A DNA stretch of 64,000 nt from Halichondria panicea (taxonomy: Eukaryota; Porifera; Demospongiae; Suberitida; Halichondriidae), in assembly GCF_963675165.1 (NCBI RefSeq), contig NC_087377.1, forward strand, positions 7,023,122 through 7,087,121. The letters are read 5' to 3'. Positions 2,199 to 63,164 of this stretch are shown one piece after another (the stretch's first letter is position 1; every line of letters starts with the position of its first letter). The translations under genes and the position numbers were made by a program. Under the pieces are notes generated by a model. It made no database searches. It saw only the letters and a program-made list of their open reading frames with translations, and was not told where the DNA came from.

Positions 2199-5100
2199 CT
2201 AATACACATGAACTGGCTCAATACTCTCATAATGTCCCTCTGTTGTTGCCGGGGCTTGTGAGTCATCGATCCTTTGTCCCCGTGGTTTCTTTGTCTGCTC
2301 ATAGGCAATGTTCCTCGTCAGTACTGAAGCATAAGCTTCGTTGGGCTGCTCAATTCCTGCAAATGTTGATAACCAATCCACTCTTCCATCTGACTCTGGA
2401 ACCTCAACTGCATGTCAATTGTTCAAGACAAGTTAACCATTGATTTAGGTATACCTGCATTTTGTCTCTGTTTTCTTAAAATCACAACGACAGTTCCAAC
2501 AGCGGTGACCACAAGCAATAGCAGAATCACCAAACCTAAAAATGTATAATTTTATGTTAGCCATTCTTTTAGAGTACGTACCTTAACCCAGTAATCGGTA
2601 AATATTCACAAACTGATGGTTTATCATAAATTATGCTATTCTATTCTATACAAACTATTCAGTGCTCTATAGGTGCATTGACTTACCAACTATAGCTGCT
2701 GCTGTGACAGTGAATGGAGAGAATCATTATGATACACTTTTACAGCGCTAGAAACCTACCAACAATAACTGATGTCAGCAGGGACTCCATACCAGGAGGT
2801 GGTGGGTCTGTTTGTGGATCAGACGTTGGAGATGTAGTGGGAGCAGCTGCAATAGAAATGAGGAGGTGGAATAAGTGATTGTCAGTTCTGATAATCTACA
2901 GAGGCACATACAGGTGGGTAGATCCAGTTGCATAATGAGCGATACCTTCCCTTCAAAGATGGACTGTGAACTATTCCAAGAGTACACCACCACATAGCCA
3001 TCACCAAAAGTGTCCTTTAAAGAGATGATAGTTGAGACTTCAGAAGAGTTGATGAACTGACAATCACTCTGTCCAAGATGGTGGATTGGAACAAGACTAG
3101 ACAATTCAGGGCAGAGTCACAGCAGGTCACTTCAACCTCTGCATTTGTTAACTTGGTAGCACTAATATTAACTCTCTCTGGGTGGTGAACTGGTAATGTC
3201 TATGGTGAAGTAAATGACAATTCTTATATAGTCTCTATAATTAGCAGACCAAAAACACACGGAGCACTCACCTTCACCAGTCGAGTTCACTGTCATCTTG
3301 TTTTGACTGAGTGCTACCATGGAGATGGGCATTCTTGGTAAATGGTTGCTCTCCAGATCAAAAGCAATCACTCGGTATTCTCCACTAGGAACAGGACTGG
3401 TGAAAATTTCACTTGAATTCCGAGGGATGGTGACAAGTTTTATGTCAAACACTCCATCAATGATACAAATTGCACAGACAAGAGCTCCGGAAGAGACAGT
3501 ATCTTCAACATACACAATGCTCACACAAATACCACCACCACTAGGACATTCAGACACTAGCAGGTCTTGAATATCAAATGTACCTGAGTGAATAATCATG
3601 ATGTCTGCTCAAACATATACTTAATAGACTCACTGACTGGAATGTTCTCAAACATGAGGTCTATTACATTCTCATCAGTCAGTGTGACACTGTATTCTGT
3701 CATCTTGTCAGTGGGGAGGAAGAAACTGAGTGAGCCATCAAACAGTAGAGGGTCCATGATTGGAAGGTTGATGGAGGGAGTCAATAGGTCAGAGTCTACA
3801 CGATACCGAGTGAACCTTGTACAATTTGGTATCTGTAAACAGTATAAGTATAGTGCATGTGTAAATCTCACCAACTATAAAATAACTCACAGTGGCTTTA
3901 AACCATACTGACTTATTCTTCCCACTTTCACGAATATGATGTGGTTCTTCAATACTACCTGCATAATGTAGAAGCGTAACAAGCAGCGTGTATAATATGT
4001 TAGAGTGCACCATACACACCTTCTGCCCTCGTAAAGAACCCAGTAACTGGTTCACTGGTTGTTCCTCTCATCTCTCCATCAGTAGGAGTCACAGTGAAGG
4101 AGAATCTGTCACACACACTGATGAGGTTGGAGTACGTGAAGATGTACTCGTTAACCAGTCCACACACAGAATTAAGAACAACTGTTTCAGTGGAGTCCAA
4201 AGTTGTCCTGGTGATCTCCACACAGCACTCAGTGAGGGGTAGAGCATTCCACATCACGGTGATGGTGTTTGGAGCAACAATAAGATGAGTGAGGACCGTT
4301 TCTAATGTAATAAAAGAATAAGGAAAGAAATTATGCTGAGACAATCAAGAAATTGACTCACCACGAACAATTAGAGATGCTGGGGATGAAATCTCAAATG
4401 TACGATCAGAGCCATTTCTGATATCAACCTCACAGAGTTCTTGTGCTGTGGAGTGGCCAAGATTGTCAGTGTGGTTGGTCCACCAGGAGATGAAGGTGGA
4501 CACATTCTAACAGTTTCAGTATTTGTAGTGACTACGGAATTGTTTATTGTCCAATCATAAGTAACAGTCAATCCCTCCCCTTGATACTGACAACTGAACA
4601 CTGCCTCCAGTCCCTCGGCTCTCTCCACTGATACTGGCTGTACTGTGAACTGAGCTGTGAGAAATTATTAGCACGCAGTTATCGTTTTGGGTTACTGTAC
4701 TTATAATCAAGAGTATATAAGTCAGGTTTACTACATTTAGATCCCATTTGAGTGTATTTAGCAGGGAACTATGAGCTATAGTACCGGTACTATAGATTGC
4801 TCTGGGCTACAAACTACATTGTATTGTGATTTACAAGAAGATACACATGTAATAACATAAAAATTATTGTAGCTAGATGCTTTGTCTAGTAATATAATAA
4901 CAGAACTAGAATGAAAGAGAGAAGCTCTAGTTTCTTTTTTTGGCTTTGTACAAGAGTAGTAGGAGACGCTCGTTTTTTGGGCGGCAGTGTGCTGTGCTTT
5001 TTTGCTGCAAGGCTGCATAGGGGAGGAGCTGGATGTATGAAAGTGCTGGGATTCTAGCTTTGGCTTCTTCCTAAAGTTCCTTTCGCTTTGTTCAAGAGTA

Positions 5101-6588
5101 GTATAGGAGCCGCTCGTTTGCTGGGCTTGTTTGCTGCAAATTATAGCTTAGGTGTCTTCCTTTCGCTTTGTGAGAGTAGTACAAGCCGCTTGTTTCTTGG
5201 GAAGTGTGCTGGGCTTCTTTGCTGCAAAACTGGGGGAGGAGCTAGATGTTTCCGTTTTGTGGGTGGAGCTAGGTCAAACTGATGTGGAAGAAGAACAGGG
5301 TTGATTTGAATAGAGACCACAGATTTAGTAGAGACACAGAGATGCTAACTTCAGATATTAGTTTTCAAAAGAATAATGATGCAGTTGCTAGGTTGGCTGT
5401 TTATATAGGTTGACTGTTGCTAAGCTAGTGCATTTCTAGTAGCCAATAGGTTTTGGGATCTAAATCAGTTAGAACATGTGCATTCGGTATCTATGGTTAT
5501 AGTGTCCCTCATCCCTCGGGCTAAAGCCCTCGAGCTTTGGGACACTATAACACATAGATACCTCATGCCCATGTTCTAACTATAACGTAGATATCACTGT
5601 CTAAATTAGCAACAGTCATGTAAATTGTGTTTCAGCAGTTTATCTACAATGCACACCAGTAATTTGGTAGCACACAATCTATTATGTACCGATCTACATG
5701 GTCACATTTTCTGAGGTCAAAATTCTGGAGAGATAATAATTCAGTATAGGCTCACACACACAAACTGACAAAAACTGTAAACCGACCCAAGCTGTACCCT
5801 AGCTGTAAATGGATCCAAAGGTGTGCTAATAGCGGTGGTACTCATGTAGAGAAGCATCACGTGCTGGACTATGTGAGTCACATCTCTGGCTGCATATATA
5901 GTTATCGTATATCTTCTAATTTATCGGACACTTCTAATTACCCCGGACACTCTTTTGGGCAATTTTCGTTGTTCTAATACAACGGACACTCCAGTACTTT
6001 AATATTACATTTGTTCTAAATATCCGGACAATACCTTGAAAAGTTGAGTTATCATTCATAGGCGGCAAGTAAGGCTTAGAGTGCTGCAGTTAGATAGCTA
6101 TATAGTGCAACTATTCAGTCGTACCCTGTTCTATTAAACTTAGCTAGCTCGCATGCAGCTGCTTGCTTGTTCTAATTATTCCGGACACTTCGCGCATGCT
6201 CTATAAAAGTCTGTTTCAATTATACCCGGACAATTTCCAAAATAATTATTTTTTGCTGTCCGATAAATTAGAAGATATACGGTATGTATAATATAGCGGT
6301 TGCAAAGGAAAGAGTGATCTGACTTGCAAGGAGCATACAATTAGCATGCTTCACGTGCAATACACAATGGTATCCAGGCTTATACAATGTCGTTCCCAAT
6401 TGACTAATTAGGCACTCGAAACTCGGTATACGATCTACATGTACAATAGTATTCTTGTGGCAACATTATTTTGTATGCAGCAGTATTAATTCTTACTGCC
6501 AATGTAACATAATAGCCTTACCTTTTACAGCTATGATGAATGACCCTGCCATAAAAAGAAAAGTGAAAGATGTCAAACTCTTGTCCAT
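2199..6588 (-). CDS. R1: Ig/FN3-type membrane receptor, short tyrosine tail, two frameshifts
   Basis: Eleven exons follow R2 phases: 6588-6522 (signal peptide, starts MDKSLTSFTF), 4654-4362 (Ig), 4301-4020 (FN3), 3958-3891, 3832-3634, 3583-3272, 3189-2912 (conserved beta-rich modules), 2846-2760 (stalk), 2711-2697 (15-nt microexon), 2535-2455 (transmembrane helix, then RKQRQ stop-transfer) and 2407-2199 (tail, TAG stop). All junctions have GT/AG. The tail carries YASV, six residues later YEQT, then YESI: a degenerate ITAM-like layout. It likely acts at the cell surface; the ligand is unknown. Two exons (Ig and 3189-2912) are each one base short of frame against paralogs, so as sequenced the protein is broken after the Ig W region. 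The paralog R4 continues past the R1 stop with YEDV. With both bases present it would have about 630 residues. Pseudogene, null allele or assembly error cannot be separated here. Confidence 0.72.
4733..5585. repeat. Dispersed ~0.85-kb repeat in R1 intron 1
   Basis: This sequence, from an acatttagatcccatttgag start to a catgttctaactataac end, recurs at about 12,449-13,641. It holds three degenerate tandem units built around cgctttgt...gagagtagta...gccgctcgttt...gctgcaaa, and ends in an imperfect palindrome around 5,485-5,575 (ggtatctat...atagataccc type arms). It lies inside R1 intron 1. The 12-kb copy lies within the tail duplicate and is absent from the matching place in R2, so it behaves as a mobile sequence. 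Confidence 0.7.
5901..6284. mobile_element. Palindromic MITE, ATCTTCTAATTTATCGGACA ends
   Basis: The ends are inverted copies of TATATCTTCTAATTTATCGG, and the interior repeats a ttctaat...cggacac word at intervals. It lies in R1 intron 1 and has no open frame of note. Confidence 0.7.
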
Positions 6589-6837
6589 CAGAGCATGAAG
6601 CTGTGTGGAAATTTAATACCAGATAGATCTTAGTTCTACATGCTAGATCTATAATTATAGCTAGATCTACTAGATAATCTAGCCATATATATCTATGCAT
6701 GGCAACAGCTACAACACAATCTACACCCATACCCCCTTTAGATCACTCACCTTTACTGTACGACACTCACAGTAGATATATCTAGTACTTTTATATTAAA
6801 GCCATGCAGCCAACAGAATTACCAATACTACATGTAC

Positions 6838-6862
6838 TAGCCTCGGCCTGGGATCGAGGCTA
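6838..6862. mobile_element. 25-bp minimal TAGCCTCG...CGAGGCTA element with 9-bp TSD
   Basis: Only the two terminal segments of the TAGCCTCG family remain, joined directly, and they are flanked by direct repeats TACATGTAC at 6,829-6,837 and 6,863-6,871. The 9-bp duplication matches the other family members at 23,687, 53,292 and 55,457. Confidence 0.75.
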
Positions 6863-6882
6863 TACATGTACAAGAGTTATAG

Positions 6883-7625
6883 GATTGGTAAAGATCACAC
6901 TAGTGACTAGATCCAGAGGAGGGAGGACACGATTAACCTTAGCTCTAATTAGCTAATTATCGCGACCTTTTAATTACATTCTTTGAACGATTCATCTTTT
7001 CTTTCTTTATAACCTCTACATATTGGACACAAGAGCTAGAGCCTTTTCTCCTACTGGAGGTACCCCTATGGCCAAGTTGTCAGGACCTGAAGGTAATAGG
7101 ACCTATAAGAAGCACCTCAAGTACTCCTATCTCTAAGATCCCTGTGAGAAGCATCCCAGGCACTCTGATCTTGTCTCTGTGAGAAGCACTCTTGATCCTG
7201 GAGACAGGATCCCTATGAGGAGCACCCCAGGCACTCCTGTCTCCAATTAAGATCCCTGTGAGAAGCACCCCAGGCACTCCTGTCTCTGTGATAAAGCTGC
7301 AACATGGAATTGTTTAGTTCAGAGTGTCTCCAACATGAAGAACATCAATGACACTAACAGTCTCAGCTTCTAGCACCCCTTTATTTGTATGGTTTGCTCT
7401 GTGCCTGCAAGAATTGCCTGTCACTCATACTACAGTACTGTTCTGTGTACGTACGTGTGTACGTGTCCCAATATGTAGAGGTTATAAAGAAAGAAAAGAT
7501 GAATCGTTCAAAGAATGTAATTAAAAGGTCGCGATAATAATTAGCTAATTAGAGCTAAGGTTAATGGTGTCCTCCCTCCTCTGGACTAGATCTAATAGCT
7601 CTATCTAGTGTGATCTTTACCAATT
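6883..7625. mobile_element. Foldback element with ~130-bp inverted arms and internal minisatellite
   Basis: The left arm (about 6,883-7,030) and right arm (about 7,470-7,625) are near-perfect inverted copies, including attggtaaagatcacac ends and a long stretch around the rRNA-unrelated word gaacgattcatcttttcttt. The middle (about 7,120-7,290) is a degenerate array of a roughly 36-bp unit, ccctgtgagaagcacccc-like. It has no coding capacity. Confidence 0.75.
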
Positions 7626-8131
7626 GTAGTCTATATCTACATGCAGAACAAAGAAGCTTCAGAGGAAATTAAAGGAACAAGGCCACCTCTTCACCTGTTA
7701 ATGTTATTAAGTATTACCCTCCATCATATCCCAGGTACACTGTACAATTCAAGACTGAGTACGTATGTGTACATGTGCACGCCGATCTACCCGGCCCGGC
7801 GGGGTACCCTATCCCAGACTAGTCTCATGCATCAGCCGCCTTGGGATAGACTCTCCCAAGGCAGGCTGATTCATGAGACTAGACCTGACATTAATTTTCT
7901 GGCTCTTGTAAAAAAGCGTGTTTGTGATTCCAAGGCAGTCGTCTTTAATTGTATGCACATGCATTGTTTTGATGCATAGTTATGCCATCTTTTTAAGCCC
8001 ACAATGTATATTGCTACATTTTGTGACTCTGCGTTCTTGGATTGATCAATGTGTTTGTTCATATTTATTTCAGCCTCTGCCACTCCAATACATGTAATAT
8101 TTACTATTTATTGGTGGTTGGAATTACAATA
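7626..8131. other. Non-coding spacer with a 60-bp hairpin
   Basis: No gene is supported. At about 7,822-7,882 an interrupted palindrome pairs agtctcatgcatcagcc with ggctgattcatgagact around a short loop. A degenerate half appears at about 30,825-30,840. The rest shows no recognised structure. Confidence 0.5.
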
Positions 8132-8441: not shown

Positions 8442-8819
8442 TAACTACATCGGAACCATGCATATGCTGTCTAGTAAATTTCCCATAGGAACCATAATTA
8501 ATTATAGTGTGTCACTATAAAGACTCACTATATGATTTGACAGTTTGGGTGGGAGGTGGGAACCTTCACCAAAAGGTCAACTTTCTGTATGCCATAATTA
8601 TACAGAACTGGCCACAGTGCAATATGCCATATACCTTTCATCTCAGAGGTCAAAAGGCAACAAAACTATATGCCTGGAGAAAAGGAGGATTGAATCAAAG
8701 AATTATGTCACTATTAATTATTTCCCAGCATGATAAAAGACATGTGTTTTGAGTGAATTCGATAAGTAAATTTTTAGGTTTTCTTCCCACAACTAGTGCA
8801 TTAGGTAGTAGCCTATAAA

Positions 8820-12448: not shown

Positions 12449-13641
12449 TAACATTAGATCCCATTTGAGTGTATTTAGCAGGGAACTATGAGCTATAGTA
12501 CGGTACTATAGATTGCTCTGGGCTATACAAACTACAACATTGTACATAATTATTGTATTGTGATTTACAAGAAGATACACATGACTGTAATAACATAAAA
12601 ATTATTGTAGCTAGATTGTTTGTCTAGTAATAATAATAATAACAGAACTAGAATGAAAGAGAGAAGCTCTAGTTTCTTTTTTTGGCTTTGTTCGAGAGTA
12701 GTAGGAGACGCTCGTTTTTTGGGCAGTGTGCTGTGCTTTTTTTGCTGCAAGGCTGCATGGGGGAGGAGCTAGATGTATGGAAGTGCTGGGATTCTAGTTT
12801 TGGCTTCTTCCTAAAGTTCCTTTCGCTTTGTTCAAGAGTAGTATAGGAGCTGCTCGTTTGCTGGGCTTGTTTGCTGCAAATTATAGCTTAGGTGTCTTCC
12901 TTTTGCTTTGTGAGAGTAGTACGAGCCGCTCGTTTCTTGGGAAGTGTGCTGGGCTTGTTTGCTGCAAAACTGGGGGAGGAGCTGGATGTTTCCGTTTTGT
13001 GGGTGGAGCTAGGACTATCATTTTGTCCATGAAGCTGAGATGAAGGAACAGGGTAGACTGGCGGCGACAGCCGCCCGAGCGTGTAGCGCGAGCGACTGGC
13101 AAACTGCCTATCAGTCACTCGTCTCAGCGGAAGTTTAATAGATCGTATGACACTACTAAACATGAATATCGTTATAGATAATGTGGTTAAATTTTGCTAT
13201 GAGATTCAGCTACTATGGAATGCACTGAATCCCCTGAAGTGTAAGTGCGGTTACAATTACAGGGCTAATATGACGTTGAGCAATCTGATAGGCTGCAATG
13301 CTCGTTGCAGCTGAGACGAGTGACTGATAGACAGTTTGCCAGTCCCTCGCGGTACACGAGGGGCTGTCGCCGCCAGTCTAGGAACAGGGTTGACTTGAAT
13401 AGAGACACAGAGATGCCAACTTCAGATATTAGTTTAAAAGAATAATGATGCAGTTGCTAGGTTGGCTGTTTATATAGGTAGACTGTTGCTAAGCTAGTGC
13501 ATTTATAGTAGCCAATAGGTTTTGGGATCTAAATCAGTTAGAACATGTGCATTCGGTATCTATGGTTATAGTGTCCCTCATCCCTTGAGCTTTGGGACAC
13601 TATAACACATAGATACCTCATGCCCATGTTCTAACTATAAC
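12449..13641. repeat. Second copy of the 4.7-kb dispersed repeat, with a nested MITE
   Basis: It matches 4,733-5,585 over its length, including the degenerate tandem units and terminal palindrome, but carries the 327-bp insertion at 13,054-13,380. The R2 region near 32,395 lacks it, giving an empty site between gatata and ttataaacaccc. Confidence 0.75.
13054..13380. mobile_element. TAGACTGGCGGCGACAG MITE with 9-bp TSD
   Basis: The ends are TAGACTGGCGGCGACAG and its inverse, with a second inverted block (actggcaaactg...atcagtcactcgtctcagc) inside. Direct repeats GGAACAGGG flank it at 13,045-13,053 and 13,381-13,389. The homologous repeat at about 5,293 has a single copy of this word and no element, which is an empty donor site. 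Confidence 0.9.
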
Positions 13642-25964: not shown

Positions 25965-26145
25965 TCTTCACCTATGCTGTAAACTAGGGAGCTACAGTAG
26001 CTAAGCACGTACTACTAAGTGCAGCGCAGTGCAGTGCAGTTTTAAATGCAGCTGAATAGTGCTAGTCCATCGGCGCATGCGCAATAAAGTAGCCATGCGT
26101 GAACCCGCAGGTGTGATAGTTCAGTGCGCATGATTTGTGGCTTGC
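25965..26145. promoter_or_regulatory. Bidirectional promoter region with NRF1-type palindrome
   Basis: 181 bp separate two divergent start codons. It contains gcgcatgcgc at 26,073-26,082, the NRF1 palindrome, and a short gcagt repeat near 26,021-26,040. There is no TATA box at a clear position. Confidence 0.5.
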
Positions 26146-29100
26146 ATGCATGCAATGATGAATGATTCATGTCCTCTCTATGATGGCAGTTATAGCCAAG
26201 ACTCTCTCCTTATTGTGTCACCAGGGACAAGCAGTAAGCAAGACTCACAAACTAGCATCAGGGGTGCATGCACTCCTGCTAGCATAGCTAACAACAAGCA
26301 AGACTCTCTCCTCATTGTGTCTCCAGAACTCGAAACAAGCATAGTGCAAGACTCTCTCCTCATTGTGTCTCCAGAACTAGAACTCGAAACAAGCATAGCG
26401 CAGGACTCTCTCCTTATTGTGTCTCCAGAGCTCGAAACAAGCATAGCGCAAGACTCTCTCCTCATTGTGTCTCCAGAACTCGAAACAAGCATAGCGCAAG
26501 ACTCCCGCCTCTTTGTGTCACCAGAACTCGAAACAAGCATAGCGCAAGACTCCCTTCTTATTGTGTCTCCAGAGACAAGCATGACTACCAACACGCAAAA
26601 CTCTCTGCTCTTATCTCCTGTTGTAGACAGCAGCCAAGAGTTGTTTGTGTCCTCCAGCTTCACTAACTGTGATGCTGACTCCGAACTACTCGAACTCATG
26701 GATTTTGATCCCCAATTTGAAGCTCCTTTGAATTCAACACCTGTCAAGAAGCGAAGGACAGAAGATCCTTTGGAATATGAGAGTGAATCTCCTGTAAGCT
26801 CTCATCGGTTTCAATGTTGTGGAAGGGTGTGTATTGCTGCATTTACTCAGCAGGAAGTACAGAAAGTTAGAGGTATCTTTAACAAAAAGAGAAGAGCTGA
26901 CCAGAAACAGTTTCTGTTTGATACCTCATTGATATTTATTCCCTCGTCAAGCAGACAATCATCGAGCTCAAGCAAGCTTACGATGATGCTCGAAGGAAAG
27001 CATGTATGCAAGAACGCCTTCTTGAATATTCTTGGAATTTCAAACAAGAGATTCAAAACAGTAACCGAACAATTCTCAAATGGCATTCACAAAGCCACTA
27101 GAAAACCCCACGTGAGAGCCGAGGCCTCAAAAACGTCTGAAGCCAAGACTTGGATGAGGCAATACTTTAATCTCATTGGAGATCAGATGCCTAACATCGA
27201 TCGTGTACACCTTCCTCATTTCCTCACTAAGTACGATGTGTACGTCAGGATGAAGAGGGAGCTCATGGCTGGAGGAATCCCAGAAGATGCTGTTGTGAAA
27301 GTTTCTACCTTTTACCGCTTTTGGAAAGAAGATTTTTCGAAGGTGCTCATTCCCAGTGTAAGTATTCTATTATACTATTATTATATAACCATAACCATAT
27401 AATTATCCAATTTACAGCAAAGCGCTTTCAGCAAGTGTGATATTTGCACTAAGTTTGACCAGGAAAGAATGAAGAGTGGATGGAGGTGTGGATTTAAGGA
27501 GGAGTATGATCAACATCTACAGATTGTTCAGTAAGTGACTCTGCAAGCCTTTACCTTGTATTCGAGTACACATTACATTTCCACGCAATTAATTCTTTGC
27601 CTTTAGTCAGACAGCAATAAAATGTACCTAAATTACTCGTCCCATGTGCATAATTATACATCCAAAACGTAATTATGCATGGGTGCATGGGACTCACAAT
27701 TATATGCATACGAATTTTATTCCATCTTGCTATTATTATTATGGTGACAGGCAAGAAAGGCGGAAGTATTATGGTCATCGGGAAAAATCTAGAACAAATC
27801 CACAACACAGTGTTACCATCATCATTGATGGCATGGATCAGCACAAGACCAATCTTCCTCGCCTCGCAAAGATCCCAAAGTCTGTGCAGGGATTGCTTCC
27901 TCTCAGAACACACGTCACTGGAGTGCTAGTACACACCCGGGCACCTCATGGAAAGTTAGCTCACGTCTACATTGACATGCTGCAATTCCCTCATGACTGC
28001 AACGTTACGATTCATGTGCTGCTCAAATCCTTGATTGCTCTAGATCATCTCCCACCAGTTCTCAACATCCAACTGGACAATACAGCAAAAGAAAACAAAA
28101 ACAAGTTCTTCCTGGGGTTTTGCGCATTGTTGGTAGAACGAAAGATATTCACTAAGGTATCATTATAGTAATTATTACATAGCAACTGCATGCACTGCCC
28201 TGCCCTAATGACTATAATTATAATCATTCATGCACACATTGTCAATGCATGGTTGCCCATGCATGCATATGACACTGTATACATTGTGCTATAATAGGTG
28301 CGGGTAAACTTCCTACCTGTTGGTCATACTCATGAGGACATTGACCAGCTTTTCTCAAGGATATCTAAGCAGCTCACTCTAAAAGGAGCTGAATCTTTAC
28401 CAGGTAATAATTATGCATTCATAATTATACATGTAGTATGTAGGTATTATGCATGGTGGTCAATTATAATTATAGCTATAATTATACTTCCTAAAATTTA
28501 TTAAGGTTGGTTTTGAATTGATTGTGACATTACATAATTATTGTTGCATGTAAAATTGTACAGATCTCCAAAAGCAGATTACACAGTCAAGCACACCTAC
28601 CCCAACGGTTGAGGTACTCAATACTATTTCTGATGTGAGGTCGTGGCTGGAACCTTGTATTGACGGACTAAATGGTCACTCTCTTCCACATTGCTTCAAA
28701 TTCTTTTTAGAAGATGGGAAAGCTGTGATGTATTTCCGGCATTGGAGCAGTGATGCTTGGTGCAATGCTGATGTAGCAGTGAAACTACTTCTGGCAAGTC
28801 CGCATGTAATAACGTTTTTTTTGTCAGTGATCATAATAAATACCGTACAAGCACATGCATACTACATTATGTATGGCAACACACTTTGTGTTAGGGTGTA
28901 TGCAGTTGTTATAATAATTAATAGCAGTTTTTTACAGACGCTGAAGTTCGAACCATAAGTATATTCTACAGCTCTCTAGGCCCTGATAATACACCCATTC
29001 GATTCTTGAATTCTTTAAAAAATTAATGTGCCTATTATGTTCATAAAAATTTGGATTTTGCACTATTATAGCGTAACATTTTTGAGGGTTAAATTTTTGC

Positions 29101-30298
29101 TGATTCGTGCATTTTACTGTAACAAAAATGGACAATGTATTTATCGACCTACACCTCTTAGGCTATAAATTAAGCTCATGCATTCGTATAGATCAAATTA
29201 CACGCTTTTAACTTTACATGCAAAATGTTTACTGTGCAGGAGATTCCATGTGGCATTCCAAATAGAGTTCACCTGTCTGACAACAAGATAGACCTGCCAC
29301 GTCTACACATAGATATTCCAAAGTTTTATTCTTGGATCTCTGATGATGCTCGTATTTGGTGGGAGCAATTTGATATGGACGCTGTCTACTCTGATGATGA
29401 ATTTGGAATTACCCCCTGGCCCTTGCTACATCTCCAAGAAGGTGAGCAAACTCTCATTTCAATCAGAATTATATACGTAACACCATAATATACTTTACAT
29501 TACGTATATCACTTATATTCTAATAATTATTACACAGTTCGTCAACTGGCCCAACTCCCAGCCTCAGGATCAGCAGATATGAGCTGTGATGCGCCTCAGA
29601 ATACCCAGCTTCAAGCTCTATTTGCTGCAGAGAATGAAGAGTGCAATGTAAGCAATAATTATACGACAGTTCAGCACACCTATTGCACTTTCCCTAAATT
29701 TATAATAACCTAAATTTAGGTCACTTTGCATAATTTTTCAACTTAGGTATATACGTAATGCATATAAGTATATACACACAATTCCCTAAATTTAGGTCAA
29801 TGTGTGCATGCACACACACAAATTATACCATCCCTAAATTTAGGTCACTGAGTAGGCTTCCTAAATTTAGGTTGCTTTGTTCACATGGTATCTACCTTCA
29901 AATTCAATGTCATACAGGTGTACACTGGCGCCTACCGAAAGCAATCACGGACAGACGTTAGGGAGGTGCAGGATTTAGCAGGTCTCAAGATTGATCAGTT
30001 GCTGGCAGTCAGAAGCTGTCCAAGCAGTAACATCGAGCCATGGATTGCTCAACTTCGATCGATCTCAGATTCAGAGGTAGGAGTTGTCTGGATGGAAGGG
30101 AAGTACAACAGCAAATGGAAAGTGGCAAGAAGACAGGATCCAGAAAACAAGAGGAAGCGAATTGAGTGGGAAGATTCAGTCACGAAATCCTCAATACTCT
30201 TGTACGATTTCCAGTTGACGTCCACCGGTCATCTACGTAAAAAGACAATAGAACATTTAAAGAGTGTATACCAAGAGCTAAAGCAAAGTAACACCTAA
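26146..30298 (+). CDS. 923-aa DUF7869-type protein (transposase-like core) with N-terminal 16-residue repeats
   Basis: Eight exons in consistent phase: 26146-27357, 27418-27530, 27751-28156, 28298-28403, 28564-28805, 29240-29441, 29538-29647 and 29918-30298 (TAA). The sum is 924 codons. Residues ~17-150 hold seven QDSLLIVSPELETSIA-like repeats encoded by a 48-bp minisatellite, then a C-rich segment (CCGRVC, later CKNAFL). The core has IIIDGMDQHKTNLP, IQLDNTAKENKN and LPVGHTHEDIDQLF, the acidic positions expected of an RNase-H-like fold and typical of metazoan DUF7869 proteins. The C-terminus (about 798-923) is basic with YNSKWK and LLYDFQLT. It is probably a domesticated or still mobile transposase-like nuclear protein; activity is not known. 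The first in-frame ATG is at 26,146, with another at 26,155. An aataaa at 30,382 could be the polyadenylation signal. Confidence 0.8.
26196..26590 (+). repeat. 48-bp coding minisatellite (16-residue repeat)
   Basis: Seven copies, plus one degenerate, of a 48-bp unit keep the frame and encode QDSLLIVSPELETSIA-like blocks. One copy reads RLFV. The LLIV core followed by acidic residues resembles a SUMO-interacting motif. Confidence 0.85.
29700..29880. repeat. Cctaaatttagg palindromes in an intron
   Basis: The 12-bp perfect palindrome cctaaatttagg occurs four times within about 170 bp of the last intron of the 923-aa gene, usually followed by tcac or ttgc. Confidence 0.8.
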
Positions 30299-44738: not shown

Positions 44739-46893
44739 TACAAGTTCTACATAAGCGTGTCCCCGGCCACCCGTTACGCCCCTGCTACCTTTACCTGCAG
44801 TGCAAGCTCCAACCACGAAAATATTACCCACGAAATGTCTCAATATTGTTGAACCACGAATAATTATTTTATCCCCCAAAAATTACCCGCTATACGCTAT
44901 ACGGTATGCTTCAACCAATAAAACCGCGAATATTTCATGTATTTTGCCCCACAAAGATTACCCGACCAGCTATACGGCGTACAGCCGCATAATAGCCGGC
45001 CGATCAGAGTATTTAAGCATAGATAAAAGAGACAAATGGATAGGAAACACTTAGCGCATCGAAAAGTATCCGCGTTTCCCCCAGGATTCATTCGAGGCCG
45101 CCTACTGTACATGGAAAAAAAATGGCCAAAAACACAAAAAAGAGACAAATGATTGTCTTACTGTCAGTGTGAGAACCCTGCTGCTGAACTTTTACTTCTG
45201 TTTAATACTTGAGGCTATATGACACACAGTACACTACTTATATAGATTGTTCTAGCTGTATTATAGGTGTTATTGGTACAAGAAACATCCTAAGTAGTGA
45301 AAGCAATGTTTCTGTACCTCTAGCTACTTCTTAGCAATCCCAAAAAAGTTTCTGTTATTTCCAAATGATACCTAGTATAAAGGGACATTAAATTGAAGTG
45401 GTAGGGAGACTTGGAAAGGTCTAAATTTTTCAAAACAGCCATAGAAGTAGTTTTCCTGGGGGTTTCAGCGAAACACGGCTGTATAGTATAGTACTACCTT
45501 AATACAGCTCACCTCTGTTATGAATTCTTTTTTTCTTGAGGCTTTCAGACAAGGGGAGTAAGTATCTTGGCTAGCATAGCTAATGTGTACGTGTAAATAG
45601 AGTCTTCATACACCCGTCCTGATATGTAGTTTAATTAAGGACCAGAGGAGGTACGACATAGGTTGACCTTTTTGCTAATGAGTTACTCCCGTATTGCATT
45701 CCTGCAGCATGACAGGATGTCACGCCCACATTTACCTAGAGAAGGGTGTGGCGATGTGTCATAATTTATCACCAAGTTTCACGGAGGAATTTGAGTGTAC
45801 GGAGAAAGAAGAGAGTATACGGAAGCACAACACCAAAACTTGCTCTCCTAGCTAGCTAAAAGACTACCAACGATCATAGTACTCTACAGTAGTTATAAAT
45901 AATAAAAAAAAGTGATCAATTTCACCATTTCTATGTACAGCACATTGTATGGCAGCCAAGACAGGTAATGAGCATGCTGACTATAAAATAATCCCTTTGT
46001 AGTTTTAGCCACGCCCTATAACGCGGAGTGTTTCACGCAAACATTTTCGTTTCCAATCCCCTTCCTTTTCAATCTATGTTTAAACGCCCATGGTAAACTC
46101 TGTCTTAGAATTCATAACAGAGGTGAGCTGTATTAAGGTAGTACTATACTATACAGCCGTGTTTCGCTGAAACCCCCAGGAAAACTACTTCTATGGCTGT
46201 TTTGAAAAATTTAGACCTTTCCAAGTCTCCCTACCATTTCAATTTAATGTCCCTTTATACTAGGTATCATTTGGAAATAACAGAAACTTTTTTGGGATTG
46301 CTAAGAAGTAGCTAGAGGTACAGAAACATTGCTTTCACTACTTAGGATGTTTCTTGTACCAATAACACCTATAATACAGCTAGAACAATCTATATAAGTA
46401 GTGTACTGTGTGTCATATAGCCTCAAGTATTAAACAGAAGTAAAAGTTCAGCAGCAGGGTTCTCACACTGACAGTAAGAATCATTTGTCTCTTTTTTGTG
46501 TTTTTGGCCATTTTTTTCCATGTACAGTAGGCGGCCTCGAATGAATCCTGGGGGAAACGCGGATACTTTTCGATGCGCTAAGTGTTTCCTATCCATTTGT
46601 CTCTTTTATCTATGCTTAAATACTCTGATCGGCCGGCTATTATGCGGCTGTACGCCGTATAGCTGGTCGGGTAATCTTTGTGGGGCAAAATACATGAAAT
46701 ATTCGCGGTTTTATTGGTTGAAGCATACCGTATAGCGTATAGCGGGTAATTTTTGGGGGATAAAATAATTATTCGTGGTTCAACAATATTGAGACATTTC
46801 GTGGGTAATATTTTCGTGGTTGGAGCTTGTACTGCAGGTAAAGGTAGCAGGGGCGTAACGGGTGGCCGGGGACACGCTTATGTAGAACTTGTA
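44739..46893. repeat. Large near-perfect inverted repeat, arms ~788 bp
   Basis: The left arm (44,739-45,527) and right arm (46,107-46,893) are inverted copies differing by a few substitutions and short indels, for example gattgtctt against gattctt and one substitution near the outer end. The 580-bp spacer contains a truncated GATTGGAAAC-family end (about 45,930-46,085). The arms contain TACCGTATAGCGGG-type relics. A 79-aa frame appears in both arms with no family signal. Confidence 0.9.
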
Positions 46894-54999: not shown

Positions 55000-55034
<35 letters not shown>

Positions 55035-57204: not shown

Positions 57205-57841
57205 GTTGATGGCAGCCATTAATTTTAGACTTGAACTTTTGGCATCGATCGTTTTTAACAACAATCATGGTCGATCATTACCCACTCTTTGAGTCTGCAT
57301 GCAGCAAAATAATTATTGCAAAAATGTTAATCAGTATAAAAGCTATTAGTAGCTTCATGTTATGTAGCTTTGGCATCTCCACCGAGGCATCAGTACCTGC
57401 GGTGCTTTCATTAATTAAGTAGCTGGGCATTGTATGCAAGTAAAATCAAAGCCACTTGGCTTTAGGTTGGTAACTAAGTAATGTTCATGTTTGTCTTAGT
57501 AAGCTGGTTTTTAAAAGCAGACTTTTTGTGTACCCATTTAGAAAGTTACATCAATGATTGAATGTAGGTAAATTCCTCTTTGTATATTCATTGATATTTG
57601 GTTCATCGTATCGGCACAGTAATTTACGACAGAAATTTGCTACATTTCCATAATTCTCTATCATGTCTGTGACTGTACTGGAATGAATACTCAACGGTAC
57701 AGACAGAGCTCCTCTCAAGAATTTGCTGTCCAAGCTGCTTTTTACTGCTTGGAGGGTCTCACTAACTATTGCTGCTACCTTGTTGTGACTGTTCCACTAG
57801 CCATTGCTAATACATGGAGCTCAGTAGCTAGTTTATAGCCC

Positions 57842-58973
57842 TATGGGGTGCCGTTTGTGTCAAAATATTGATGACAAAAACACAAGGTTTTGGTGGTATT
57901 TACTAAACATTTGAGGGTATTTGGTAAACAACTGAGGGTATTTAGCAAAGGACTGAGGGTATTTAGCAAAGGACTAAGGGTATTTACTAAACAACTGAGG
58001 GTATTTAGCAAAGGACTGAGGGTATTTAGCAAAGGACTAAGGGTATTTACTAAACAACTGAGGGTATTTATAGCAAAGGACTGCATGAGGGTATTTAAGT
58101 AAACAACTGAGGGTATTTAGTAAATGTCTGTGGGTATTTACTAAACAACTGAGGGGATTTAGCAAACAACTGAGGGGATTTAGCAAACAACTGAGGAGAT
58201 TTAGCAAACAACTGAGGACATTTAGCAAACGACTGAGAGTACTTTAGCAAATGGCTGAGGGGATTTAGCAAATAACTGAAGGCATTTAGTAAATGGCTGA
58301 GGGGATTTAGTAAACGTATTCTCTTCAGCGAGTCAAGGTCAACACTACTATATAGTAGGCGTTTGTCTACTCTTCTTAACAGAGTGTGAATTCATCTGGG
58401 CACAGCAGAGAATTTTAGAAGAAGTCTTGCACACTGTGCATGCGCACAACCTTGTGCCCTGCACATCTCCCTAATACCAGGAGCAGATTACAGATTAGTC
58501 AATTATTTACTTAAATACTCTCTGTCATTTGCTAAATACCCTCAGTTTTTTTTACTAAACATGATCATGATACCCCCCCAATCCTTTGCTAAATACCCTC
58601 AGTCCTTTGCTAAATACCCTCAGTTGTTTAGTAAATACCCTCAGTTGTTTACTAAATACCCTTAGTCCTTTGCTAAATACCCTCAGTTGTTTACTAAATA
58701 TACCCTCAGTCCTTTGCTAAATACCCTCAGACATTTACTAAATACCCTCAGTTGTTTAGTAAATACCCTCAGTTGTTTAGTAAATACCCTCAGTCCTTTG
58801 CTAAATACCCTCAGTCCTTTGCTAAATATACCCTCAGTTGTTTAGTAAATACCCTCAGTCCTTTGCTAAATACCCTCAGTTGTTTACCAAAATAATACCC
58901 TCAAATGTTTAGTAAATACCACCAAAACCTTATGTTTTTGTCATCAATATTTTGACACAAACGGCACCCCATA
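57842..58973. mobile_element. Foldback element with opposing minisatellite arrays
   Basis: The ends tatggggtgccgtttgtgtc and its inverse bound an array of a ~22-bp unit (gggtatttagcaaaggactga and variants with aacaactga) at 57,899-58,320 and the same array in inverse orientation at about 58,500-58,912, with a unique centre of about 180 bp. Short leucine-rich frames through it are repeat artefacts. Confidence 0.9.
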
Positions 58974-59377
58974 TAGTACTAGCTAAAAGCATGGGTTGGA
59001 GGAAATAAAGAAGAAAACATTGACCGAAACGCGGATGGTCAATGCTATTTACGTAGCGTTTCCCATCCCTCTCCCTTCTTATATCTATGATTAAAGTTGA
59101 CCGTAGCTAGTTGATCGAGTAAAACCCTGAATAAAATAAGCGTTAATTTTGTTCCAGTTTAGTTAGATCCTATCTTTTGTTTTGCTACGGACTCTTCTGA
59201 AAAGGCAGCAATCAAGTAAGCACTGAAAACTAGGCATAACTCGAGAACGAAGCTTTATTTTGCAAATCCACAAATACCAAGCCAAAAGCCTATAGAAACT
59301 CTTACTTGCACTTCATTGATCCTTGAGCAGCTGAAACAGTCTACACACACACAGACACACAAACACACTACCGTATA

Positions 59378-59651
59378 TACCGTATAGCGGGTATATTTCG
59401 AGGGTGTAAATTTTCGCGGATGGACCATTACAATGGATTTTGCGGATTTTATTTTCGTGGTCTGAGTTCCAGCCTTTTGGCGCATGCGCACATCAACATG
59501 CAGCTGTACCTCCACACCGTTAGCCTCGAATCCAGAATACTGAACACGCCTACTATTCATAAATTTTCGTGGGTATAAATTTTCGCGGTACAGGCGAAAA
59601 CCGCGAAAACCGCGAACATTTATACCCTCGAAATATACCCGCTATACGGTA
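59378..59651. mobile_element. TACCGTATAGCGGG-family MITE
   Basis: Ends taccgtatagcgggtatatt and inverse; inner words ttttcgcgg occur in both orientations. Related to 1,892-2,108 and 21,213-21,457. Confidence 0.8.
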
Positions 59652-59691
59652 CCTTGCTTGCGCATGCGCACCGAGGCATAAATATTAAATA

Positions 59692-60174
59692 CAGTAGAAC
59701 CTCAATTATCCGGACACTTGGTTCCAGAGGCAGACCGGATAACTTAATATGCCAGATATAATCGAATGGATAAACTATCATGCCTTGATCACCCACTTCA
59801 TTGATAAACAGCAGTGTCTGTGGCGCAAACAGTTTCATCTAGGATTAAAAGTTTGGGGGGGGGGAGGTTTACGCACGCCGCAAAATGTTTGGACACTCCC
59901 ACATGTGTTGATCACACCCCTTATTACATACTAGTGCATCACAGTAGATATAGTTACATATTGCACATCGTATACATGTGTACAGTACTAAATATGTGAT
60001 GATGTTATTATTATACACACATTTTGGGGGAACCCCCCCCCCCCACTAGATGAAACCCTGGCAAAAAATAAACATGCTTGTGTCCACGGTAACAGCAGGT
60101 AATTGCACATTCGCATTAAGGAACACGCCCATTTTCAGAGAAAATTGCCAAGCCGGATAATTGAGGTTCTACTG
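59692..60174. mobile_element. Composite pogo-like MITE beside R5
   Basis: Same composite structure as 39,622-40,126, with the nested element at about 59,829-60,060. Its right flank matches R2 intron 5, so the insertion predates the duplication that made R5. Confidence 0.85.
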
Positions 60175-60201
60175 TAACTACTACTGAATAACACGACATA
60201 C

Positions 60202-60686
60202 TGATTAGCATGTCCTTGAATATGAGGCGCACACCTGTGATCGAATTAAGCGTCACAGAGATGTTGATTATTCGGTCAGTGGGAAGAGAGACATTTATTA
60301 TTTGGGGATCTTTGATGGTCTCATTGATGGGTGCCAATACGCCAGAGGTCACTTGGTAGGAGGTGAAGTTGGTACAGTTGGGTACCTGAGAGGTGCACTG
60401 AATAAAGGTGTCTTACAGTCAATACGTCTCTTACCATACCACCGAGATGTACTATTTTCCTCAACACATTTCCTCCCTGACTGATGAAGGGAGCTACATT
60501 GGTATTATCTGTGGTAATTGTTAAGCAAAACACACATTATAATATTTTTAATTCACAGTACCTGTTACTCGTGTGAAGAACCCAGTGACTGGTTCACTAG
60601 ATCTTCCTTCCATTCCTGACTCACTAATTGGAGTCACAGTAAAGGAGAATATATCACAGACAGTGTGGTTCTTAAGTTGATAATTA
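60202..60686 (-). pseudogene. R5: three-exon fragment of an R2-like ectodomain
   Basis: Exons 60385-60202 and 60508-60435, and the 3' part of an exon from about 60,686 to 60,562, match R2 exons 5, 4 and 3 with identical phases and no frameshift. The fragment starts abruptly at a hairpin (60,687-60,720) and ends at the intron carrying the composite MITE. No downstream receptor exons follow. It has no start codon or transmembrane segment of its own. Confidence 0.85.
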
Positions 60687-60720
60687 AATTTGTGTAGTCT
60701 GAAAAAAGACTACACAAATT
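60687..60720. repeat. Perfect 14-bp-stem hairpin at the R5/R4 junction
   Basis: Aatttgtgtagtct and its complement flank a gaaaaa loop, exactly where R5 homology to R2 exon 3 ends. Confidence 0.85.
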
Positions 60721-60818
60721 ATGTGACCTATATATTAGAGGCTCTGCTGGCACCCAATTGAAACAGTTTATACAATGTTGAGCTACTATTATAAAAGTGT
60801 AAAGTTTACAATGTTGAG

Positions 60819-63164
60819 CTATAAATTAGTTTTCGGGAGCACATCTTCGTACTCATGAACTGGGTCAATGCTCTCGTACTCTCCCTTTGTTGTTGCCAGA
60901 GCTTGTGTTTCATTGATCTGTGGTTTCTTTGTTTGCTCATAGGCAATGTTCCTCTTGATCTTGAGTACTGGAGCATAAGCTTCGTTAGGCTGCTCAATTC
61001 CTGGAAACGTTGAGCACCAATCAACTCTTCCATCTGCATAAAATTATTATCAAAGTAACATAGATAGCAAGCAAGACGAAAGTTTCATTATTTACCTTCA
61101 TTTTGCACCTTTTGTCTTTTTTTTAGACCAACTACAATGCCTGCTCCAACAATAATGACTACAAGCATTAGCAGAATGACCACCACAGTTATCCCTATTA
61201 TAATTATATATAGGTGCATGTAATTTTAGCTAAACACTATTCGCTTTACCAGCTATTACTCCTGTGGCCAATGGAAATTGAGACCCAGTAACAGGTACAG
61301 GGGGGTCGGTAGGAGACAAGGGAGACAAGGTAGAAGGTGCACCTGCATGTACACAACACAGTAAACTGTAACGAAAATGGGCTACCAAATACACTTACTT
61401 GTTGGTGGATTGAGTTGCCTAATGAGTGATACCTTCCCGTCGAAGATGGATTGTGAGCTATTCCAAGAGTAGACTATCACATGGCCATTAGCAAAGGTGT
61501 CACTGACAGAGAAGGTCGTTGAACTTGCAAATGAGTCAATGAGAGCAACTAAAATTCTGTCAAGATTGATGGTAGACTGAAACAAAACAAGACAAACGAC
61601 ATCAGGGTCAGCACAAGTCACTTGTGCATCTCCATTTGGCAACTTTGTGACAGAAACGCCTTCACAACTGGGAGGTTGTCCTATATAATTATACAAAATG
61701 AATAGGAGAAGTGACACTATATATACACATGATCACCATCTCCTGAGGGCACCATAACAGATATATGTCCCTGCTGTCAGCTGCTATTGAGATGGGCATT
61801 CTCGGCAGAAAATTGCGTTCAAGATCGAACGTAATCACTCTGTAGTTTCCACTGGGAACAGCTAATATTGTGAAATTGTCACTCCTGCTACCAGGTATGG
61901 TAATCACTTTTATGCTACCAAAATCCAACTCTCCATCAGTGATATGTATCACACAGACGAGAGCTCCGGGAGAGAGGGTACCTTCAACATACTCAATGCT
62001 CACACTAATACAGTTTCCTTCAGGGCAAATGTCTACCGTCAAATTTTGAACATCAGTTGTTCCTACAAGGATAAAACATGTATATACACAATTAGATTAT
62101 AATTATTGATATACAATAATTATTATGGCGTACGTATTGCTATATTTTGGATAATCAGTTCAACACCCCCCAGTGCAGTAAGTGTGACAGTGATGTTGGT
62201 TATTATGTCAGAGGGAAGAGGGAAACTCAGCACAGTCAGCGGGTATTGTATGATCTCAGTGATGGGACCTGGCAAAGCATCTGAGTCTATTCGGTAATGA
62301 GTAAAGTTGCGGCAGTTAGGCACCTGCAAAATGGAGCACTAAACATAATAATGCTAATGGTAAAGTTTCAGTTACCACATCAATGAGAGTCACTATTTTC
62401 ACCAACACATCTCCATTCTGACTGATGAGTGGGGCAATGCTATCACCTGCACGTGGAAGAAGAGCTGAGTGAAAATATCAATATACAAAATGTACTGCAT
62501 GTGCAGTATACCTGTTACTCGTGTGAAAAACCCAGGGACTGCAGGTTCACAGGATCTTCCTTCCATTCCTGACTCACTAATTGGAGTCACAGTGAAGGTG
62601 AGTATATCACAGACAGTGTGGTTAGGGTATCCGTAATTAAACTGTGCCCATTTATAGGAGGGAGTGCAACCATCTCATTGGTGCCCAGAGCAGTAAGCGA
62701 GATGTCCACACGATAGGTATCATTATTCAGAGTGAAGTTATTCGTCACAGAGACAACAAGGTGGGTTTTACTATTCACCACTTCAATAGATACACGCTCT
62801 GAGAAAAAAGGCCTTATTAAATCAAGGCAACCGTGTCTATAGGTGTACTCTCTATAATATCTATATACAACTCACCAACTATCAATGTTGCATTCCTTGA
62901 GAATACTTCACTAGTCACTGAAGCTGCAAGACACTGAATGACACTGTGTTGTTGAACTGTAAGCTGGCTGGGATGGTCAGCACTGAGGGATGACCAGAAG
63001 TGCCTCCAGCTACTCTGATTTCAAATGAACTGTTAGGGCTTGTGGTCTGGATGCCACTCACAAACCAAGGGTGAGCTATAGTGCTCCAGGAGACAGGCAC
63101 TTGAACTCTGCCAATAATCCCTCGGCTCGTACCACTGACTCAGGCTCAATTGTAAACTGTTGGG
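60819..63164 (-). pseudogene. R4: R1-type receptor copy with several frameshifts
   Basis: Exons 63164-62876 (Ig), 62798-62512 (FN3-like), 62446-62376, 62323-62134, 62062-61737, 61680-61399, 61342-61250 (stalk), 61194-61096 (transmembrane then KKRQK) and 61033-60819 (tail, TAG). Splice sites are intact. Against R2 the Ig exon has two 2-bp insertions (about 63,075-63,081 and 62,941-62,956), the FN3 exon a net loss shifting frame at about 62,641-62,652, and exon 62062-61737 an extra TA at 61,761-61,766. The tail itself is open and shows the family's fullest short-tail layout: YAPV, YEQT, then YESI and YEDV five residues apart. No signal-peptide exon was found up to the window end; R1 has a 1.9-kb first intron, so it could lie beyond. 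Confidence 0.8.

Follow-up and report, generated by a model that had tools for sequence, protein, structure and literature searches.

A candidate paired-receptor-like gene cluster with shared ectodomain cassettes and two tail classes in the demosponge Halichondria panicea

Described receptor systems and the sponge cluster

In paired receptors, as defined in the passages of PMC3533184 that we follow, the genes are clustered on one chromosome and encode highly similar ectodomains, inhibitory members carry an ITIM, activating members combine a short tail with a positively charged transmembrane (TM) residue for an ITAM adaptor, and the members signal in opposition on immune cells with overlapping expression. 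The cited parts of PMC5112662 describe the CEACAM genes (CEACAM1/CEACAM3 and the Xenopus clusters) as clustered members of the immunoglobulin superfamily (IgSF) whose binding exons are very much alike, whose own tails carry either ITIM or ITAM-like motifs, and in which conversion is confined to the ectodomain exon. In the sponge, by contrast, it is the entire ectodomain cassette that is shared, leaders and TM segments differ between the classes, and the short tail has no strict ITAM; the likeness is one of architecture. The inhibitory and activating ectodomains of Siglec-11 and Siglec-16 are kept alike by repeated gene conversion, according to the cited portion of PMC5701461; that system is a single primate pair, whereas the sponge has a pool of dozens of copies. 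Salmonid NILT genes, as covered in the part of PMC3022915 used here, form a tight IgSF cluster with an ITAM or ITIM in the tail, pseudogenes and transposable elements but, unlike the sponge genes, they are vertebrate, have one or two Ig domains and are far fewer.

Outside the vertebrates, the relevant sections of PMC12065747 describe the Botryllus FcoR genes as a large clustered IgSF family of 53 loci with ITIM, hemITAM and core YxxI/L/V motifs and with HECT E3 genes nearby. FcoR differs from the sponge family in having sushi and C2 Ig domains and fester partners, and those sections do not describe ectodomain sharing across tail classes. The Hydractinia Alr complex, for which they cite candidate genes with ITIM/ITAM motifs, has members of low identity, whereas the sponge ectodomains are interchangeable across two tail classes; this comparison is by description. 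In sponges, aggregation factors and the Geodia Ig-like adhesion molecules and receptor tyrosine kinase (RTK) have been proposed as recognition molecules, the Geodia ones being Ig-like. The aggregation factors are, however, extracellular proteoglycan complexes and the Geodia RTK is a kinase receptor, and two tail classes are not described in the passages cited (PMC11999971, PMC12018476). Sponge graft specificity indicates a polymorphic genetic system (PMC5450542, in the part cited). The nature of sponge self/non-self molecules is a long-standing question, for which the cluster described here is a concrete and testable candidate. A sponge report of such a receptor family was not found among the matches listed from the open-licence PMC literature.

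The window analysed here is a stretch of 64,000 nucleotides of the Halichondria panicea genome, and a preliminary description of it had proposed a receptor family with one shared ectodomain and two signalling tails. Most of that observation is borne out, and the system extends beyond the window: the receptor genes are clustered on one chromosome over ~0.85 Mb (C1:6.91-7.75 Mb). Genome searches placed at least 130 of 136 ectodomain-exon matches in C1:6.91-7.70 Mb (the best 87 of 265 candidates scored), at least 50 of 72 short-tail matches in C1:6.91-7.75 Mb and at least 44 of 46 long-tail matches in C1:6.96-7.70 Mb; the counts are lower bounds because the best candidates alone were scored where many existed. 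A silicatein-like gene encoded in the same genome points to a demosponge as the most likely host. The receptor genes fall into two classes, class L with its own leader, TM and ITIM-type tail, and class S with another leader and TM and a short multi-tyrosine tail. We put at roughly 0.55 the probability that the window is part of a sponge paired-receptor-like cluster, with ectodomain cassettes shared between inhibitory receptors (class L) and activating ones (class S). The resemblance to CEACAM and Siglec-11/16 would be one of working, by analogy, and we do not claim homology. The proposal of a shared ectodomain with two tails holds at the level of the family, more strongly than the window itself shows, but is supported in part, because the short-tail genes of the window are broken and strict ITAMs are absent; opposite functions of the tails and a role in self recognition would be predictions.

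The long-tail gene of the window

R2 (41334-32661, minus strand; all R2 exons are given in this direction) reads as a single 15-exon gene for a type I receptor of 966 aa plus stop, without an internal stop, and its exon borders are AG/GT with matching phases from the leader (41334-41268) through the terminal exon with the stop (32719-32661). The leader, of class L type La, has an ATG, a hydrophobic run, phase 0-1 and a GT donor; its 3' end has five genomic matches, including itself, at three mismatches or fewer. The ectodomain is encoded by an Ig exon (41217-40933) and an exon labelled FN3 (40812-40510), both of phase 1-1, followed by m1a (40461-40388), m1b (40338-40155), m2 (39020-38706), m3 (38624-38310; no shared Pfam family) and a hinge exon (38258-38184) within which DNA similarity to class S genes stops. 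Beyond these lie a TM exon of class L type (37854-37761, phase 1-2), a bridging exon (36720-36678, phase 2-0), and the tail exons A1 (36156-35707) and A2 (34350-33988), with PPxY and YxxV/YxxI sites, A3 (33386-33254) and A4 (32947-32807). The exon order and phases said to be common to R1, R2 and R4 were borne out where exons are readable.

Among the modules named in the preliminary description, the Ig assignment is supported, though weakly. The Pfam family Ig_3 matches 9 of 13 Ig copies (best E 7.4e-6; R2 E 0.019), with R2 and R1 at 15.9 and 24.5 bits, below the Pfam cut-off of 30, and C22, W32 and C76 are invariant in 13 of 13 copies; profile and C-W-C pattern together place the family in the immunoglobulin superfamily. 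The FN3 assignment did not hold up: no copy of the exon (0 of 14) matched Pfam fn3 at E up to 1, a profile run against PDB sequences with the same limit gave no fibronectin match either, and the structure model is poor and of no use (pLDDT 40.5). The structure model of m2, a beta-sandwich, is of low confidence (pLDDT 57.6), and its best PDB matches are weak (E >= 0.009), several of them being FN3. When profiles were compared, m2 showed no similarity to m3 or to the FN3 exon, nor did the FN3 exon to the R2 Ig, and no relatives of m2 were found in viral and prokaryote contigs.

Two ITIM-pattern sites had been read in the R2 tail, and both are there, as strict VIYSEV (A3) and VIYVQV (A4) in the open 15-exon frame. 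The usual donor of A3 is missing and another was assumed; because R2 is without the donor used after A3 elsewhere, the second site depends on this other donor. In number the sites are within chance (2 in 361 tail residues, 0.61 expected, P = 0.13). Their support comes not from the count but from conservation: the pattern recurs in all 10 A3-type exons and all 10 A4 exons that are readable, motifs having been counted in readable exons alone. As a sequence pattern, class L would have the ITIM of inhibitory paired receptors. L022, a class L gene with a beta ectodomain, is, like R2, open from end to end (953 aa); the tails of the two comprise ~380-400 residues, with two ITIM-pattern sites and PPxY sites, and every long tail that can be read (9 of 9) has PPxY in its A1 exon.

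One could envision that the long tail is part of another gene lying downstream of R2, which the preliminary description named as a refutation, given that long-tail introns in R2 reach about 1.4 kb and that the reading rests on genomic DNA rather than a transcript. We consider this highly improbable, since several loci have bridging exons of fitting phase and repeat one exon order (TM, bridging, A, terminal), and R2 and L022 each splice into a single open frame. The R2 bridging exon has relatives in L001, L023 and L025, and a shorter form, SNSEGGSV, is found in L004, L005, L021, L022 and the relic long tail of the window, block B (16968-13788, minus). Block B consists of a bridging exon (16968-16947), a frameshifted A1/A2-like stretch, A2, A3, A4 and a terminal exon, and no ectodomain was found in the 7 kb modelled. 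L021 could not be fully assembled, its m1a and A2 exons not being found.

Short-tail genes and possible tail signalling

Class S tails are ~70-90 residues long and contain a YEQT site along with three or four YxxPhi sites (YAPV/YASV, YESI, YEDV and often YVNV). The closely spaced tyrosine sites reported for R1, R3 and R4 exist, but all three of these genes, the short-tail copies of the window, are broken. R1 (minus strand, beta ectodomain) has the signal-peptide exon that had been reported, of class S type S1 (6588-6520), and extends from Ig through the short tail at 4655-2199. It has a frameshift in Ig, a disrupted m3 exon and a stop after VHVY in the tail, so that its fourth tyrosine site is lost. 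R3 (53750-52041, minus) is a remnant with an interrupted m3 piece, the hinge, a class S TM and a frameshifted short tail. R4 (63163-60819, minus, gamma ectodomain) is frameshifted in Ig and FN3 and open from m1a through the tail; no leader was found in the 837 window bases ahead of its Ig exon or in the next 3 kb. Just after R4 lies part of an alpha ectodomain, comprising the end of FN3, m1a and m1b (60691-60202, minus), and class S leader-like DNA of S2 type (1717-1595, minus) lies ahead of the next copy beyond the window.

No leader occurs within a few hundred bases of most short-tail Ig exons, hence an initial idea that these copies are leaderless cassettes using a shared leader. It was rejected once a class S leader family was found 0.8-3.3 kb upstream. 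All 10 class S copies for which upstream DNA was fetched, a sample partly chosen for open appearance, have a class S leader; eight of them are open from leader to stop (L013, L014, L016, L017, L029, L031, L033 and L034; 620-659 aa), and L028 and L032 are broken, as is a good part of the class S copies outside the window. Leader class matches tail class wherever both are seen, except in L012, where what is left of a class L leader accompanies a class S tail; in L026 the leader is of class L, its TM and tail not being resolved. L036 and L037 were assigned to class L by leader and TM, with no adjoining long-tail match listed, and L002 was given the tail L003, ~11 kb distant, by an assumed link. 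The idea that a single gene is spliced alternatively to either tail was rejected, as the two classes occupy separate loci and differ in leader, TM and tail.

The label "activating" for class S rests on analogy, since a strict ITAM (YxxI/L-x6-12-YxxI/L) was found in 0 of 28 short tails and a strict ITIM in 2 of 28; a relaxed ITAM with V allowed occurs in 13 of 28. Comparison of the TM segments by eye revealed no charged residue within the class S membrane stretch. Class S thus departs from activating paired receptors with a positive TM residue for an ITAM adaptor; its tails bear their own tyrosine sites. The genome encodes an SH2-SH2-PTP locus, whose best match is SHP-2, and an SH2-Ank-SH2-kinase locus. 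We propose that ligand binding would lead to tail phosphorylation, upon which the tandem ITIM-pattern sites of class L may recruit an SHP-type phosphatase and dampen the response, and class S may recruit a tandem-SH2 kinase or adaptor SH2 proteins and promote it. The balance of L and S would then set tolerance or fusion versus rejection or attack on meeting another individual or a microbe. If the cluster works as proposed, the paired-receptor principle, maintained by exchange of ectodomains, also evolved outside the vertebrates, in one of the oldest animal branches, and made use of effectors already present there (SHP and a tandem-SH2 kinase).

YxxPhi is also an endocytic signal, and PPxY is a WW-domain site. 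Alternatively, then, the proteins might be adhesion or uptake receptors whose tails differ in trafficking and not in the sign of signalling, YxxPhi serving AP-2 sorting and PPxY engaging NEDD4-type ubiquitin ligases. The PPxY sites in all nine readable A1 exons and the lack of strict ITAMs agree with this, but the ITIM pattern, present in each of the 20 A3-type and A4 exons that can be read, and the matching SH2 effectors encoded in the genome do not favour it, and we think it unlikely. Observations counted against the paired-receptor-like reading include a mean Ig-exon dN/dS below 1, the possibly endocytic role of YxxPhi, and the changed donor of R2 A3.

Probable ectodomain exchange, and selection

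Alignment of seven pairs of a class L and a class S gene, introns included, yields between one and three pieces per pair, at 81-95% DNA identity. The first piece begins within ~10 bases of the Ig acceptor in six pairs, L012 being the exception. The last piece stops inside the hinge exon in five pairs, 7 bases beyond it in one, and in the hinge region of L002 (not resolved) in one. In two class L-class L pairs, by contrast, alignment continues into the leader and TM. The R2 m2 exon is 98.4% identical to that of class S L018, versus 86.1% to that of class L L036. The ectodomains are thus highly similar across the tail classes, as in paired receptors, and the shared cassette is bounded by phase-1 introns. 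Furthermore, the cluster has full-length open genes with either tail for the alpha (R2-like) as well as the beta (R1-like) ectodomain.

The phylogeny of ectodomain against tail suggested in the preliminary description points the same way. A single class L clade was rejected by the AU test in the ectodomain tree (p = 1.4e-7; 7 long versus 21 short rows), which included the 31 of 45 modelled stretches with at least three of four readable modules and placed L036, L037 and L026 outside the long and short groups. It was rejected again within alpha (p = 2e-75, 5 versus 8) in a DNA tree of 13 hand-chosen alpha copies. Together with the alignment borders, these tests indicate CEACAM-type exchange of ectodomains between tail classes, conversion and crossing-over not being separated. 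Our interpretation is that both classes draw on one pool of cassettes (Ig, the FN3 exon, m1, m2, m3 and hinge), which may be exchanged or homogenised between them by gene conversion or unequal crossing-over, and that this exchange would keep both classes matched to the same ligands.

What those ligands might be can be seen in two ways. The cluster may be a demosponge histocompatibility complex of dozens of genes, L inhibitory and S activating, with one cassette pool re-exchanged between the classes; we hold this only tentatively and regard it as doubtful. If true, balanced paired recognition by ITIM and YxxPhi with ectodomain swapping arose in one of the earliest-branching animal lineages, independently of vertebrate paired receptors. 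Another reading, at somewhat less than even odds, is that the same architecture serves to bind microbial or symbiont surfaces, class S being decoys that conversion keeps in step with class L, a model put forward for CEACAMs. Conversion of the Xenopus CEACAM binding exon, with ITIM versus ITAM-like genes, is read as pathogen-driven in the cited part of PMC5112662. The sponge data fit this reading and allorecognition alike.

The family might also be a decaying, largely neutral tandem array, in which unequal crossing-over and transposon activity made tail switching a by-product. The broken state of R1, R3, R4 and block B fits such decay, and near-identical blocks suggest recent segmental copying. 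We find this quite improbable, however, given the fully open state of eight of the ten class S copies examined upstream (a sample chosen in part for its open appearance), the tracking of tail class by leader class, L012 excepted, and a dN/dS below 1 in every exon set tested but the beta hinge (1.06). The Ig exon has dN/dS values of 0.74 and 0.73, versus 0.35 and 0.46 for the short tail, and the long-tail exons A4 and A3 have 0.43 and 0.50; L015 and L019 were omitted as near-copies of L017, and readable exons of broken copies were included. Under the paired-receptor-like reading that we prefer, exchange would not be constant, since class S short tails largely track ectodomain type in a short-tail tree built without L009, L030 and R3.

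The R2 gene and the receptor family

The receptor copies found in the window (R1-R4) lie on the minus strand, and R2, as modelled from the sequence, is a coherent gene. Its 15 exons, which have AG/GT borders and join in compatible phases, encode 966 amino acids and a stop, in the order leader, Ig, FN3-labelled module, m1a, m1b, m2, m3, hinge, transmembrane segment (TM), bridging exon, long-tail exons A1-A4 and terminal exon. The bridging exon (43 bases) converts phase 2 to phase 0; when TM is joined straight to A1 without it, a stop is soon met in frame. Related bridging exons occur in three copies modelled elsewhere in the genome (L001, L023 and L025); L004, L005, L021, L022 and block B, a relic long tail (window 17.0-13.8 kb), have a shorter version, SNSEGGSV. 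The terminal-exon acceptor was found again 3′ of A4 in nine of ten copies, the exception being L023; L021 is cut there. In other copies A3 ends at CCAG/GTACT, a donor that R2 lacks, and our model splices A3 of R2 at a GT further downstream. The preliminary description gave R2 a long tail with two ITIM-pattern sites: the 15-exon open frame bears out the tail, and the second site hinges on the assumed A3 donor. If that GT is unused, R2 would retain the first site only. Between R2 and block B, on the plus strand (window 26134-30298), an ORF of 422 aa in which the unit QDSLLIVSPE recurs is followed by more long ORFs, and could belong to a transposon.

Exon searches of the genome (131 Mb, 39 contigs; the window is C1:7023122-7087121) showed that the proposed family with a shared ectodomain and two tails is real, larger and more orderly than claimed. 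With 87 of 265 candidates scored, there were at least 136 ectodomain matches (130 at C1:6.91-7.70 Mb, 6 on contig C2). Long-tail matches numbered 46 (44 on C1:6.96-7.70 Mb) and short-tail matches 72, of which 50 fell on C1:6.91-7.75 Mb, 19 at C1:3.44-3.70 Mb, 2 on C2 and 1 at C1:8.72 Mb; one gene may account for several exon matches. The group at C1:3.44-3.70 Mb is more divergent than the main cluster, and two of its members, L039 and L040, carry another leader (MDLRWLFLS...) and a divergent ectodomain. We modelled 40 stretches from the genome and 5 of the window. Main-cluster ectodomains fall into three types, alpha (R2-like), beta (R1-like) and gamma (R4-like), and L006 and L027 are mosaics of beta and gamma modules. 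Equal or near-equal match scores recur at C1:7363-7367 kb and 7686-7690 kb, and also at 7356, 7494 and 7679 kb; these blocks are either recent segmental duplications or haplotypes retained in the assembly.

The Ig domain is weakly supported by sequence. Profile searches of Pfam and PDB sequences gave no support for the FN3 label. For m2 and m3, no Pfam family was common to more than one copy; a beta-sandwich fold for m2 is a low-confidence prediction.

Two classes and probable exchange of the ectodomain

The copies form two classes, each with its own leader and TM: class L, with the long tail, and class S, with a short multi-tyrosine tail. The class S leader family (MDKSLTSFTF... or MDDYTSLTF...) lies 0.8-3.3 kb upstream of Ig in R1 and in all ten class S copies whose upstream DNA was examined. 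Class L has leader La (R2, L002, L036 and L026; L037 matches partially) or Lb (L021, L022). Leader queries (E up to 0.5) gave no cross-class match in either direction; the Lb query had one weak match elsewhere (E 0.15). Eight of the ten class S copies, a set partly chosen for looking open, encode open proteins: alpha L013, L016 and L017 (no recognised hinge exon), gamma L014, and beta L029, L031, L033 and L034; L028 and L032 are broken. Since R2 (alpha) and L022 (beta) are open end to end in class L, alpha and beta each occur on both tails in full-length open genes. Apart from m1a/m1b (phase 0), every border from leader/Ig through hinge/TM has phase 1, so that the cassette could be exchanged without breaking the frame. 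Taken together, a two-class architecture with a shared cassette is well supported.

In seven class L-class S pairs of genomic DNA (R2-L013, R2-L018, R2-L012, L036-L011, L022-L029, L021-L034 and L002-L016), similarity extended across introns and fell into one to three pieces at 81-95%, with scattered extra pieces matching elsewhere in introns. It began no more than about 10 bases from the Ig acceptor in six pairs, the class S copies covering just ~230-510 bases upstream of Ig, and ended in the hinge exon in five; in L021-L034 it ended 7 bases beyond that exon, and in L002-L016 in the L002 hinge region, where exon borders are unclear. In R2-L012 it began within the leader exon; L012 pairs the remnant of a class L leader with a class S tail, has a broken m3, and is probably a natural recombinant between the classes. 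In the class L-class L pairs L021-L022 and R2-L036, similarity continued into leader and TM. The R2 m2 exon is 98.4% identical to that of class S L018 and 86.1% to that of class L L036.

The comparison of ectodomain phylogeny with tail that had been proposed was run on 31 ectodomains, and class L did not form one clade: well-supported branches require at least three tail-label changes, and holding the seven long-tail rows as one group was rejected (p = 1.4e-7). Within alpha, a single clade of five class L rows was likewise rejected (p = 2e-75), with L036 and L037 assigned to class L from leader and TM alone. Short tails cluster mostly by ectodomain type, which suggests that exchange was recurrent rather than constant. 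It would have proceeded by either gene conversion or unequal crossing-over.

Tail motifs and possible signalling

R2 taken alone, its two ITIM-pattern sites are within chance (P = 0.13). Across copies, block B counted, the strict pattern [SIVL]xYxx[IVL] is present in 10/10 readable A3-type and 10/10 readable A4 exons. Among 28 short tails, some of them from broken copies and two from the C1:3.44-3.70 Mb group, strict ITIM occurs in 2 and strict ITAM in none; ITAM-like spacing with V allowed is found in 13, and 24 retain YESI or YASI. On visual inspection, no charged residue was seen in the membrane stretch of the TMs of either class. Pairwise dN/dS was 0.74 (alpha) and 0.73 (beta) for the Ig exon, 0.37-0.63 for other ectodomain modules, 0.65 (alpha) and 1.06 (beta) for the hinge, 0.58 and 0.45 for class S TM, 0.91 for class L TM (beta), 0.35 and 0.46 for the short tail, 0.50 for A3 and 0.43 for A4. 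By these values the tails are constrained, and among the large modules Ig is constrained least.

Alongside the two-class architecture, intact members of both classes and shared cassettes, all evident at the sequence level, the genome holds candidate effector genes. One encodes SH2-SH2-tyrosine phosphatase in that order (C3:8404573-8406287), its second SH2 region best matching human SHP-2 (E 2e-55). Another (C9 near 5.257 Mb) encodes SH2-ankyrin repeats-SH2-tyrosine kinase, the order of Shark/HTK16; in Drosophila, Draper, a receptor with an ITAM, is served by Shark. On C4 (0.3-2.6 Mb), a run of dozens of matches to tyrosine phosphatase domains marks another large expansion.

We infer opposite signalling and a recognition function. 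Phosphorylated class L tails would dampen the response by recruiting SHP, class S tails would promote it through a kinase or adaptor that they recruit, and cassette exchange would keep both classes matched to the same ligands, perhaps for recognising microbes or other sponges. Functionally, the chief alternative is trafficking, with YxxPhi and PPxY as sorting signals; PPxY is present in A1 of all nine readable long tails, beside the ITIM pattern that every readable A3-type and A4 exon keeps.

The opposed-signalling reading most resembles the CEACAM and Siglec-11/16 pairs, for which conversion limited to the binding region is described as keeping inhibitory and activating partners alike (PMC5112662; PMC5701461). 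The classical paired-receptor definition gives the activating member a charged TM residue (PMC3533184). Because class S lacks both that residue and a strict ITAM, we do not file the cluster as a paired-receptor member. The nearest invertebrate systems, Hydractinia Alr and Botryllus FcoR, are likened by published description rather than by sequence.

Broken copies and other features

The short-tail copies in the window, R1, R3 and R4, are all broken. R1 has an apparently intact leader, an Ig exon that loses the frame seen in other beta copies, a disrupted m3 and a tail stopped after VHVY. R3 retains a split m3 piece, with other DNA in between, followed by hinge, TM and a tail carrying a frameshift. 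R4 has frameshifts in Ig and FN3, and a search of the 837 bases before its Ig exon and of a further 3 kb found no leader.

An element ~92% identical between its copies lies in the R1 leader-Ig interval (window 4733-5586) and beside block B (12451-13641). An inverted duplication of 99.4% identity occupies 44739-45528 and 46107-46893, and short-repeat arrays lie at 48.0-48.55 kb and at 57.84-58.97 kb, the latter containing copies in both orientations. Silicatein is a marker of siliceous sponges. A silicatein search located a silicatein-type active-site stretch, GDCGASYAFSAMGALEG, at C2:658900-660400, with Ser at the site that reads QCGSCW or QCGGCW in two cathepsin-like genes of this genome; the host is thus most likely a demosponge.
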